Source: SAR86 cluster bacterium
GTDB lineage: Bacteria > Pseudomonadota > Gammaproteobacteria > Magnimaribacterales > Magnimaribacteraceae
DNA: 64,000 nucleotides
Direction of reading: 5' to 3'
Assembly (NCBI GenBank): GCA_023703575.1
Contig: CP097969.1
Span: forward strand, 1,087,517-1,151,516
Below, piece after piece: positions 7,797 to 43,906 of this stretch; position 1 is the stretch's first letter, and each line of letters begins with the position of its first letter. Position numbers and translations under genes: made by a program. The notes beneath the pieces were generated by a model. The model saw only the letters and a program-made list of their open reading frames with translations. It did not search any database and was not told where the DNA came from.

Positions 7797-9023
7797 CTAA
7801 AGATTTCCTCCAAACCATCTAGAAATTCTATTCAAGATATTCTTGTCTCTATGAATATAATTTAAATGATCTTCTTGCATTTGCTTTTGTCCGTAAAGTA
7901 GTAAGCCGACTGAAGTTGCATAAACTGGGTTATTTATTATTTCGGAAAAACCATCTACTGAATGTGGAGATCCCATCCTTACTGGAGAATGGAATATTTC
8001 CTCTGCTAACTCAGTAGCACCTTCAACTTTTGAGGCCCCTCCTGTTAAAACTATTCCTGCAGGTATCAGCTCATCGAAACCACTTAAGCTCAATTTTTGT
8101 TGAGCCATACTAAATATCTCTACATATCTTCTCTCCAAGACATCAGCTAAAGCTTGTCTAGAAAGTTCTCTTTCAGGCCTTCCACCCATACCCGGAACCA
8201 TCATTATTTCTTCAGGTCTAGTCATTGAGCTTACTGCACATCCATATCGTTGTTTTATTGTTTCTGCTTGGGAAGGTGGTGTTCTTAAAGCTTGAGCTAT
8301 ATCATTTGTGACATGATCTCCAGCTATCGGTATAACATCGGTAAAGCAAATAGAGCCATCCACAAAAACTGCTATGTCAGTTGTTCCCCCACCAATATCA
8401 ATAAGACAGACTCCCAAGTTCCTCTCGTCTTCTGTTAGAACCGAGTAACTTGAAGCCAATTGCTCTAAAACAAATGCTTCCACATCTAGGCCAGATGCGC
8501 TGATACATTTATGAATATTTTGTGAAGAATTCTCACTACATGTTACTAAATGAACTTTTGCCTCTAATCTAGAACCTGCCATCCCTAGAGGCTCTTTAAT
8601 ACCATCTTGTTTATCTATAATGTAATCTCTAGGAAGAACATGAAGTAATCTTTGATCTGCAGGGATTGCCATAGCTTGAGCAGTTTCAATAACTCTATCT
8701 ACATCTGTGAACTTCACCTCTCCATCTCTAATTGGTACGACTCCCTCTGAATTAAGACCTCTTATGTGACTACCTGATATCCCTACGTAGCAAGAACCAA
8801 TATGACACCCTGCCATATTTTCAGCTTCCTCTATAGATTTTTTTATAGCTATTGTTGTGGAATCTATATCTACGACAACTCCATTTTTTAATCCTTTCGA
8901 AGAATGTGTTCCTAGACCAATAATTTCTAGTTGACCTCCTCTTGCCTCGGCAACAATTGCAACCACTTTCGAAGTTCCAATATCTACACCAACCAGCATT
9001 TCATTCCTACTTACATTACTCAT
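7797..9023 (-). CDS. ftsA: Cell division protein FtsA (actin-like Z-ring anchor)
   Basis: Peripheral membrane ATPase that tethers FtsZ to the inner membrane and recruits later divisome proteins. The 408 residues show actin-fold phosphate motifs VGVDIGTSKV near the N-terminus and DIGGGTTDIAVF in the middle, the adenosine motif LTGGASKVEG, and a C-terminal amphipathic stretch with the sequence ILNRISRWFGGNL that fits the membrane-targeting helix. It overlaps ftsQ by 4 bp. Confidence 0.98.
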   Translation of the reverse strand: MSNVSRNEMLVGVDIGTSKVVAIVAEARGGQLEIIGLGTHSSKGLKNGVVVDIDSTTIAIKKSIEEAENMAGCHIGSCYVGISGSHIRGLNSEGVVPIRDGEVKFTDVDRVIETAQAMAIPADQRLLHVLPRDYIIDKQDGIKEPLGMAGSRLEAKVHLVTCSENSSQNIHKCISASGLDVEAFVLEQLASSYSVLTEDERNLGVCLIDIGGGTTDIAVFVDGSICFTDVIPIAGDHVTNDIAQALRTPPSQAETIKQRYGCAVSSMTRPEEIMMVPGMGGRPERELSRQALADVLERRYVEIFSMAQQKLSLSGFDELIPAGIVLTGGASKVEGATELAEEIFHSPVRMGSPHSVDGFSEIINNPVYATSVGLLLYGQKQMQEDHLNYIHRDKNILNRISRWFGGNL

Positions 9024-9676
9024 ATTGATTTCTCCATATTCTTATTGCCTAAAGCAATAGCATTTTTATACCTCAAATCTATATATCTGATATCATCATT
9101 AATTCCTGAGTTCAGCTCGAACAGTATAAGTTCCTCGAGACGCTCGAGCTGAACCCGGAAATCCTCTTTGTTAAATCTGTACATCACACTTTCATTATCA
9201 ATCGCCTCAATAAAACCTGACCCTCTATGCTCAATTCTAATGAGAGAATTTCCTTTGAGATTTAATATATTTTGAAGTAAAAAAATACTATCAAGGAGTG
9301 ATAAATATTCATTATCACTTCCGATGATTGATACCAATTTAAGAGATTTATTTCCTCCGGCAGGAGAAATTATCTTTCCTTCTTGAGTTATAAACCTACC
9401 CCTATCCAGAAAAGCAATGGGTTGGTGTTCTTTTACTTCAATATGTAATTCTTCATCAAATGTTTTGGTGGCCTTTATCACTGAGACCCAAGAATTAGAG
9501 AAAATCTCACTTTTGTTATTTTTATTCTGTAAGTGACTTATAACCTGATGCTCAATCTGATCAAAATTTGAAATTATTTCTTTTGAGATTTTGATATTAA
9601 TTGAATCAGTATTTGCTTCTTTTTGACCCGAGCAACTGGCAAGCAAAGCAAAAAATATGATTAACAGATATCTCAT
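9020..9676 (-). CDS. ftsQ: FtsQ-type divisome protein with a lipoprotein-like N-terminus
   Basis: Assigned to FtsQ from its place between ftsL and ftsA and from two family landmarks: a POTRA-to-beta transition (EVKEHQPIAFLDRGRFI) and the C-terminal strand YIDLRYKNAIAL, which corresponds to the VDMRY-type strand of FtsQ. It has 218 residues against about 276 in E. coli. The usual cytoplasmic tail and long transmembrane helix are missing. Instead the N-terminus is MRYLLIIFFALLASCSGQ, whose LASC at residues 12-15 fits a lipobox. If processed, it would be lipidated at Cys15, with Ser at +2. It overlaps ftsL and ftsA by 4 bp each. Confidence 0.85.
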   Translation of the reverse strand: MRYLLIIFFALLASCSGQKEANTDSINIKISKEIISNFDQIEHQVISHLQNKNNKSEIFSNSWVSVIKATKTFDEELHIEVKEHQPIAFLDRGRFITQEGKIISPAGGNKSLKLVSIIGSDNEYLSLLDSIFLLQNILNLKGNSLIRIEHRGSGFIEAIDNESVMYRFNKEDFRVQLERLEELILFELNSGINDDIRYIDLRYKNAIALGNKNMEKSI

Positions 9677-9963
9677 TTATCAGCACTCCTTGTCAGATAA
9701 ACTCTATCTTTATCTTTAGGAATAACCATTCCTAGCTTTTCGGAAGCATATTTTCTTAAGGAAATGTGATTCTTATAGTACTTTACCTCTTCAATCAGGA
9801 TATTTGATTGAAAAGATAACTCTTCTTTTTCCAGCCTTAGATTTTCCAATTCTGCAAATAAAGTTCTGTGCTCATATGTTTGCAGAATAAGCTTATAAGA
9901 ACTTAAAAAAGAAATAGAGACTAATAAGGAAATAGAAAATAATTTAAGTTTAATATTCAACAT
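9673..9963 (-). CDS. ftsL: Cell division protein FtsL
   Basis: Small bitopic divisome protein that forms a complex with FtsQ and FtsB. The 96 residues consist of one N-terminal membrane helix (about residues 8-27) followed by a leucine- and glutamate-rich coiled coil (about 30-65) and a C-terminal segment with KLGMVIPKDKDRVYL, similar to the end of known FtsL proteins. Assignment rests on this architecture and on the position right after rsmH, which it overlaps by 7 bp. The next gene is ftsQ, where ftsI is expected. Confidence 0.9.
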   Translation of the reverse strand: MLNIKLKLFSISLLVSISFLSSYKLILQTYEHRTLFAELENLRLEKEELSFQSNILIEEVKYYKNHISLRKYASEKLGMVIPKDKDRVYLTRSADK

Positions 9964-12694: not shown

Positions 12695-13825
12695 ATGAAA
12701 AATATATACATAATTTTAATCATCCTTCTTGTGTCCGCATGCTCATCCATACCAAAAAATAATGAAAGCAAATCTTCAAATACTCTAATTCAAAAACCTG
12801 AATTTAACTACAAAATTAAATCTCTACCTCAGACAATAAATATATTTTACTTTCAGAAAGATAAGAATATTTTACTGCCGCAAGAGATTCAGGGGTTCAT
12901 TGCAAATTCATTTTTTTATAATTCAAGAATTTCTTATATCCCAAAAATAGTTCTCTCACCCATCACATATACTCGATGCAAGATTGAAGAAAACAAAGCG
13001 AATCTCAATATAATTTTTCATGTTTCAAATCTGCCAATGGATAAATCTTATAAGGAATGTATTAAAAAACTTCCTAAAGCTAAAACCTTGTTTGTCTCAA
13101 ATAACTTAGATGAAATTGGATTTGAGAATACTTTTATAGTCTCAAGAGAAGAAGAAAAAAATAAATTAATTCAAAATATTCCAGAAAGTTCCTCTAGGTT
13201 TGTTGTCATAGATAGTAAAAATAATATTGATAAAAATAGTATTATTAATTTGCTCAAAGATTACAAAAAAGAAATCGTGACTTATAAAACATATAATGAT
13301 GAAACAGCTAGTCAAACTATGTTCTCTGAAATTCTATTGGTTGATAGGAGTAAGGAAAGGATTAGAAAATTGTCTAGAAGGCTGTCTGAGAAAGTTACGG
13401 CTATTTCAAGAAGCCGTGAGGATATTGATACCTTTTTCTTATCATTAAACTTAAAAGAAGCAAGGAATCTAAAGCCAGCGATAGACTATATATCTGAAAA
13501 GGATTTTGATATTTTCATACTTAATAGTTGGAATACAAATGAAAAGTATCAACCTCTTGAAAAAGATCTTATTGGGTCTATTCATTCAGATATGCCTATC
13601 ATGATGCCCATTCTGATGCCTGAATATATAGCTGAAGTAAATAGAAACAGAGAGTTTGCTATTGGTTATGATGCTTTTGAAATTATTCTCTTGAGGTATG
13701 GTTCTATAAATTCAAAAAACTTTATCTACAAAGGTCTCACTGGAAAAATAAGTCTGGATCGAAAAAAGTATAAAAGATCACCTTATCTATTTGAGATAAC
13801 TGATAAAGGAATTAAGGTATTATAA
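12695..13825 (+). CDS. lpoA: Short LpoA-type penicillin-binding protein activator lipoprotein
   Basis: Outer-membrane lipoprotein family that activates PBP1a. The N-terminus MKNIYIILIILLVSACSS has a lipobox (VSAC, Cys16). The C-terminal half matches the LpoA periplasmic-binding-like domain: IRKLSRRLSEKVTAISRSREDIDTF is of the family type, followed by LKPAIDYISEKDFDIFILNSW, GYDAFEIILL and a GLTGKISLDRKKYKRSPYLF end. At 376 residues it is far shorter than the roughly 600-680 usual, so the N-terminal TPR domain is absent. Position opposite rsmI is the conserved lpoA location. The usual downstream yraN and diaA genes are not here. Confidence 0.82.
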   Translation: MKNIYIILIILLVSACSSIPKNNESKSSNTLIQKPEFNYKIKSLPQTINIFYFQKDKNILLPQEIQGFIANSFFYNSRISYIPKIVLSPITYTRCKIEENKANLNIIFHVSNLPMDKSYKECIKKLPKAKTLFVSNNLDEIGFENTFIVSREEEKNKLIQNIPESSSRFVVIDSKNNIDKNSIINLLKDYKKEIVTYKTYNDETASQTMFSEILLVDRSKERIRKLSRRLSEKVTAISRSREDIDTFFLSLNLKEARNLKPAIDYISEKDFDIFILNSWNTNEKYQPLEKDLIGSIHSDMPIMMPILMPEYIAEVNRNREFAIGYDAFEIILLRYGSINSKNFIYKGLTGKISLDRKKYKRSPYLFEITDKGIKVL

Positions 13826-43390: not shown

Positions 43391-43906
43391 ATGATCAATC
43401 TACGAAGATTATTTTCACAATATGTAATCGTTTTATCACTAATAATTATATCTCTTGGATGCACTTCAATCCCTATAGAACCTAAAAAATTTTCGAGTGA
43501 AATTAAAAATGTCCAAGAAAATTTCAAAATCGAAGGTAAGTTTAAGCTTTCGTATATGGATAGCAAGGAAACAGGTTATTTCGTTGCAAGCAAAGAAGGT
43601 AATACTGTTTTGTTGAATATTGGTAAAAACTATCTTCTTCCAGAGAAAGTTATCGTCCTCGATAGAAGAGAGACACTAAATATAAATGAATTTATTGAAA
43701 ATAATATCTTGCCTTACGACTTACCTATTTTAAAAGTTGAGAGGTTTTTAAAATTATTATTAGGACTTGAATCCAAAGATCTACAAGATGAGGAAATAGG
43801 ATTGGAAATAGAAACTAAAGGATCTGATGATTATCCTTCAGAAGTCACCCTGTTATATAAAGACTTAAATCTTCTTATGAAAGTTAAAAAAATATGGAAG
43901 AATTAA
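43391..43906 (+). CDS. lolB: LolB-type outer-membrane lipoprotein insertion protein
   Basis: LolB receives lipoproteins from LolA and inserts them into the outer membrane. I chose ATG 43391 (MINLRRLFSQYVIVLSLII, 171 residues); an upstream TTG at 43373 is less likely. The hydrophobic N-terminus ends in SLGC, which fits a lipobox except that serine replaces leucine at -3. The remainder has LolB-like beta-strand pattern (FKIEGKFKLSY, ETGYFVASKEGNTVLLNIG). Sequence similarity is modest; the lolB-ispE-tRNA-prs order is decisive. It overlaps ispE by 13 bp. Confidence 0.82.
   Translation: MINLRRLFSQYVIVLSLIIISLGCTSIPIEPKKFSSEIKNVQENFKIEGKFKLSYMDSKETGYFVASKEGNTVLLNIGKNYLLPEKVIVLDRRETLNINEFIENNILPYDLPILKVERFLKLLLGLESKDLQDEEIGLEIETKGSDDYPSEVTLLYKDLNLLMKVKKIWKN

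Follow-up and report, generated by a model that had tools for sequence, protein, structure and literature searches.

FtsQ is described as a bitopic protein (PMC6134095, PMC7733951), and in the known FtsBLQ complex its helix in the inner membrane leads on to the POTRA domain (PMC10076392). Residues Q16 and W20 of FtsB are proposed to meet this helix inside the membrane (PMC10076392); R72, E82, and F84 of E. coli FtsB are tied to FtsQ binding in a study in which, among D245, R247, and Y248 of E. coli FtsQ, only Y248 is reported as critical (PMC6134095). Among the titles and abstract openings listed in a literature search of open-licence PMC articles, there was no lipoprotein or secreted FtsQ, and no study of a SAR86 FtsQ.

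The window, a stretch of 64,000 nucleotides, is part of the genome of a SAR86 cluster bacterium, which forms a single contig of 1.59 Mb. On its minus strand it carries a division cluster in the order mraZ, rsmH, ftsL, ftsQ, ftsA, ftsZ, ftsI, murE, murF, mraY, in which ftsL, ftsA, and ftsI are assigned by Pfam and the remaining genes are named from their translations. ftsQ (9020..9676, minus strand; 218 residues, stop included in the coordinates) lies within this cluster and adjoins ftsA (7797..9023, minus strand; PF14450, E=3.2e-51), which shares 4 bases with the end of ftsQ. Between 4963 and 11317, the gene order ftsL-ftsQ-ftsA-ftsZ-ftsI has ftsQ-ftsA-ftsZ lying between ftsL and ftsI, and ftsL (9673..9963, minus strand; PF04999, E=7.1e-9) and ftsQ therefore overlap, the ATG of ftsQ and the stop of ftsL being joined as ATGA. 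At eight loci of another SAR86 family (f3), ftsQ is preceded by an ORF that, from reading alone, looks like a D-Ala-D-Ala ligase and not like ftsL.

The gene at 9020..9676 is ftsQ. Its identification needed a profile of relatives, because the window protein by itself matches the Pfam FtsQ family (PF03799, residues 94-202) only at E=0.022, below the cut-off; the NCBIfam FtsQ model gives E=3.7e-6, below its strict cut-off. The profile built from 30 homologues of the same family (f1), A2, reaches E=2e-13 against the FtsQ chain of P. aeruginosa and about 2e-12 against those of E. coli, spanning the beta domain and, for P. aeruginosa, also part of the POTRA domain. Two SAR86 homologues with a lipobox, L027 (f1) and L094 (f3), each clear the Pfam FtsQ cut-off as single sequences. 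With the predicted structure of the window protein (mean pLDDT 79), Foldseek returned ten matches up to E 0.001, all of them FtsQ structures or FtsQ-containing complexes, and the model aligns to residues 58-255 of E. coli FtsQ with a Z-score of 12.0 and an rmsd of 3.8 over 179 residues. Profiles, Foldseek, fold alignment, and NCBIfam together place the beta domain and POTRA fold of FtsQ/DivIB in this protein, the POTRA (alpha) domain at residues ~24-86 (9419..9607, minus strand; from the alignment of the model with E. coli FtsQ, which starts at residue 58 of the latter, with an approximate boundary) and the beta domain at residues ~87-211 (9044..9418, minus strand; from model and fold alignment). 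The fold-alignment rows ranked below the FtsQ chains, with Z at most 5.2, and a weak KH-domain match of the window protein (E=0.0063, below the cut-off) were set aside. In this genome, a search for a second FtsQ gave no match with PF03799 and one match each with the profiles A1, A2, and A3, all at the same place; ftsQ is under purifying selection, with dN/dS of 0.23-0.36 in five of five close pairs.

It is the N-terminus that sets this FtsQ apart. It reads MRYLLIIFFALLASCSGQ and shows neither a cytoplasmic tail nor the single transmembrane helix of bitopic topology, and the protein is classed as an FtsQ on homology, and not as a bitopic one. A predicted signal peptide (residues 1-14, MRYLLIIFFALLAS; 9635..9676, minus strand; from reading the sequence) leads to the lipobox residue Cys15 (codon TGC; 9632..9634, minus strand), the predicted lipidated N-terminus of the mature protein, with Ser at +2; the run without strongly polar residues, Cys included, is 15 residues long, and the best 19-residue hydropathy is 1.24. 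Family f1 comprises 35 genomes, 30 of which have ftsQ, the five without it being 71-82% complete. In all 30 homologues, a short n-region (from MR or MK to about MNKLN) is followed by a hydrophobic stretch and then, at residue 15-19, by a Cys, so that the lipobox with its Cys (scored by a PROSITE-like expression), the basic n-region, and the short h-region of bacterial lipoproteins are found together throughout the family. The Cys is invariant across 7 genera, down to 29% identity, preceded by G (19), S (6), or A (5); within the first 62 residues it is, beside Met1, which is constant by construction, the only invariant residue. The eight residues that follow it are hydrophilic in all 30 (flank hydropathy -2.5 to -0.4). 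At these same 30 loci the median best 19-residue hydropathy is 1.51 for FtsQ vs 2.15 for the FtsL helices (p=3e-9; here, as in the comparison of f1 with the outgroup below, related sequences count as independent). The first-pass annotation had read this FtsQ as looking like a lipoprotein and had named the conservation of the lipobox in relatives as one point on which that reading could fail; the ORF, coordinates, and N-terminus are as it described them, and both the invariant Cys15 and the low hydropathy relative to FtsL now speak for its reading.

A tight lipoprotein pattern (lipobox, hydrophilic residues after the Cys, nearby start codon) is rare, occurring in 3 of the 107 stop-to-stop ORFs of at least 80 residues in the window. 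Beside ftsQ, these are a short LpoA/LppC-like lipoprotein (12695..13825, plus strand; PF04348, E=1.3e-10; lipobox SAC-SS), which served as a yardstick, and a lipoprotein-like ORF at the lolB position (43391..43906, plus strand), so placed by gene order, for which Pfam gave no family. The LpoA/LppC-like protein has 376 residues and covers the LppC profile only toward its C-terminal end (373-548 of 563).

The reading we favor, at a probability of roughly 0.8, is that the only FtsQ of this genome is an exported periplasmic protein, lipidated on Cys15, cut by LspA, hung from its lipid, and working via FtsB. FtsQ would be exported by the short signal peptide, Cys15 would be lipidated, and the signal would be cut off by LspA, leaving the POTRA and beta domains to hang in the periplasm from the lipid in place of a transmembrane helix. 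The beta domain would dock on the C-terminal part of FtsB, and this contact, not a helix of its own, would position FtsQ at the septum. The cytoplasmic tail and the helix, both present in ordinary FtsQ, have presumably been lost. We infer lipidation itself, localization, and function through FtsB docking from the conserved features of FtsQ and its partners.

These partners are present. The search for processing genes covered LspA, Lnt, and LolC/E, and found LspA and Lnt genes in the genome, as well as one LolC/E-type transporter protein above its cut-off; an ABC-type ATPase ORF beside the latter would fit LolD. The FtsB gene is located between ORFs reading as eno and ispD, and its product, which matches solved FtsB chains at 5e-11, keeps an N-terminal hydrophobic helix and residues equivalent to R72, E82, and F84 of E. 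coli. On the FtsQ side, the putative FtsB-binding motif Y198-A208 (YIDLRYKNAIA; 9053..9085, minus strand) was aligned in the profile match to solved FtsQ; its residues D200, R202, and Y203, invariant in all 30 sequences of A2, correspond to E. coli D245, R247, and Y248, so that the motif retains the Tyr. In this one genome, FtsB (L237, 1468-1809) retains residues matching E. coli Q16 and W20, though its FtsQ is without a helix to meet them.

The favored reading divides on the question of which membrane holds the lipid. In E. coli, Ser at +2 predicts the outer membrane, and Asp at +2 is the classical signal for avoiding outer-membrane sorting. At +2, the f1 proteins have S, T, A, or E and the f3 lipobox proteins S, N, T, A, or G, with Asp in none of these 53; the window's other two lipoprotein-like ORFs have Ser and Thr there. 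At somewhat less than an even chance, the lipid would stay in the outer leaflet of the inner membrane and replace the helix, with sorting avoided by a signal other than Asp or by binding to FtsB/FtsL; this would preserve the geometry of the known FtsBLQ complex, against which stands the lack of the classical avoidance residue in 53 of 53 proteins. A more doubtful but possible course is that LolC/E extracts FtsQ to the outer membrane, from where it would reach inward to FtsB and couple outer-membrane constriction to the septal synthase in the manner of LpoA/LpoB. The +2 residues of FtsQ and of the two window ORFs argue for this course, as does the presence of LolC/E and Lnt genes; however, the model would leave only about nine residues between Cys15 and the POTRA fold, and hence no long tether of the kind that LpoB has, FtsB and FtsL, with their N-terminal hydrophobic helices retained, should be inner-membrane proteins, and the +2 rule is that of E. 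coli and may not be that of SAR86. The probability left after these two falls to placement in neither membrane or to an unprocessed protein.

An outgroup from other Gammaproteobacteria consists of 59 FtsQ rows, four of which occur in both of its sets, so that about 55 are distinct; because they are the best-scoring 30 and 29 loci of 275 and 369 genomes searched, rarer anchors may occur elsewhere. By eye, these rows show a helix of ~20 residues running into the POTRA start, mostly after a long cytoplasmic tail and in a few cases after a short one (e.g. L277); their median best 19-residue hydropathy is 2.12, and the f1 segment is less hydrophobic (p=8e-12). A lipobox Cys with a hydrophilic flank is found in 0 of the 59. 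That f1 has a short transmembrane anchor which stays uncleaved and in which the Cys is accidental is improbable: a pattern-fitting Cys does lie inside a hydrophobic run, within the helix, in 3 of the 59 rows, but there the residues after the Cys are hydrophobic (+0.8 to +1.8), whereas the flanks of all 30 f1 proteins are negative, and the f1 Cys is invariant although its neighbors vary. That a mis-called start or a sequencing error hides a normal FtsQ N-terminus is scarcely credible, since two in-frame TAA codons directly upstream of the start leave the N-terminus no longer than MRYLLIIFFALLASC and, with the ATGA overlap, speak against a start-site error, and since 29 of the 30 family homologues have no in-frame ATG, GTG, or TTG in the stretch from the upstream stop to the chosen start, while one relative, L024, has an in-frame GTG ten codons upstream that could act as a start and has no parallel at the window gene.

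Because the lipobox is invariant in f1 and absent from the outgroup, while the processing machinery and the FtsB-binding residues are kept, the evidence supports a lineage in which the FtsQ anchor appears to have been replaced, with tail and long helix absent. The suggestion that the divisome is wired differently here is borne out in this form, as a change of FtsQ anchor.

Within the SAR86 order, 203 genomes were searched with three FtsQ profiles and 150 N-termini were read (30 in f1, 24 of 29 matched in f2, 86 of 89 in f3, 10 of 10 in f4); a lipobox is found in 30/30, 0/24, 23/86, and 0/10, respectively. The f3 cases fall in the genera g15 (18 of 19), g16 (3 of 3 read), and g21 (2 of 2), and the flank after the Cys is hydrophilic in 22 of the 23, the exception being L211. 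The median best 19-residue hydropathy of these 23 proteins, 1.91, is near that of helices, in frames that may include untranslated codons; many f3 frames offer several start codons, and the choice between them affects the tail length but not the lipobox reading. In the remaining 63 f3 proteins the runs are short (e.g. TNLFA before the first POTRA strand), with a median hydropathy of 1.56 vs 2.12 in the outgroup (p=4e-15), and these proteins seem to be without a full helix and without a lipid Cys. The SPase I (-3,-1) motif was tried as a sign of cleavage and is present in 24/24 f2, 60/63 f3, and 10/10 f4 proteins, but also in 57/59 outgroup rows, and is uninformative; the idea of a cleaved, soluble f3 FtsQ therefore rests on the short, weakly hydrophobic runs, from which these 63 N-termini are read as probable cleaved signal peptides. 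The first-pass annotation took an inner-membrane location of FtsQ to be necessary for its binding to FtsB and FtsL. This premise is weakened, without being refuted, by these 63 of 86 proteins, which from their hydropathy seem to lack both a full helix and a lipid Cys. As these 63 proteins and all 24 of f2 are without a lipobox, lipidation is not required across SAR86.

In f2, the median hydropathy (1.98 vs 2.12 for the outgroup helices, p=0.03) is close to that of helices, and these FtsQs may therefore keep short transmembrane anchors; their N-termini may be either signals or short anchors. In the f2 genera g10 and g11 (L086-L093, L224-L231), the 16 FtsQs read have 155-166 residues, with no room for a POTRA domain, and consist of a signal-like N-terminus and the beta domain only. 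One of them was modeled (pLDDT 83, ~130 residues matched to FtsQ chains); it shows a single long N-terminal helix of low confidence, and its sequence alone clears the Pfam FtsQ cut-off. In the f2 genus g8 (G035-G041), none of the seven genomes, including a 97%-complete single contig, matches any of the three FtsQ profiles, which would fit either loss or strong divergence of FtsQ. In f4, 8 of the 10 N-termini look like ordinary helices. A CxxC near the periplasmic start (CEIC, CEFC, CKSC, CDYC, etc.) is seen in all 10 f4 proteins read (L132-L141). A tree of FtsA joins f1 and f2 (96/97) and leaves f3, f4, and the outgroup unresolved, with a long-branch warning; by its lipobox, the lipid anchor is spread over f1, the neighbor of f2 in this tree, and separate f3 branches. 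The tree is compatible with a single or a repeated origin of the lipid anchor and with more than one order of events.

A SAR86 lineage in which a lipid or a signal-like N-terminus replaces the FtsQ helix would be a natural test of the roles of helix and POTRA domain, and the finding bears on the proposed intramembrane contact between FtsB and FtsQ (PMC10076392). A supposedly fixed part of the bacterial division machine thus appears to be rebuildable in these ocean bacteria. A wider picture, in which SAR86 FtsQ, as a lipoprotein of the outer membrane, contacts FtsB across the periplasm, and the FtsQs of other SAR86 families are freely secreted or reduced to the beta domain, is unlikely; if it were true, an outer-membrane FtsQ would tie the core divisome directly to outer-membrane constriction, and a secreted or beta-only FtsQ would mean that the divisome core needs no FtsQ membrane anchor.

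Among known systems, LpoA and LpoB have folds and partners other than those of FtsQ, which, unlike them, has FtsB and FtsL as partners and belongs to the core of the divisome. Common ground with the SAR86 FtsQ as read here lies in their description as lipid-anchored periplasmic regulators of peptidoglycan synthesis (PMC9593243). DalA of the Rhodobacterales, a divisome-associated lipoprotein, shares the link to division, and differs, by its description, in being a previously uncharacterized outer-membrane lipoprotein and not a core divisome protein (PMC10470522). With the FtsQ/DivIB proteins of other Gammaproteobacteria (E. coli, P. aeruginosa; PDB 6h9o, 2vh1, 8bh1), the f1 protein shares the POTRA and beta domains, the FtsB-binding motif, and the location before ftsA; where they have a cytoplasmic tail and a transmembrane helix, it has a short signal and a lipobox.
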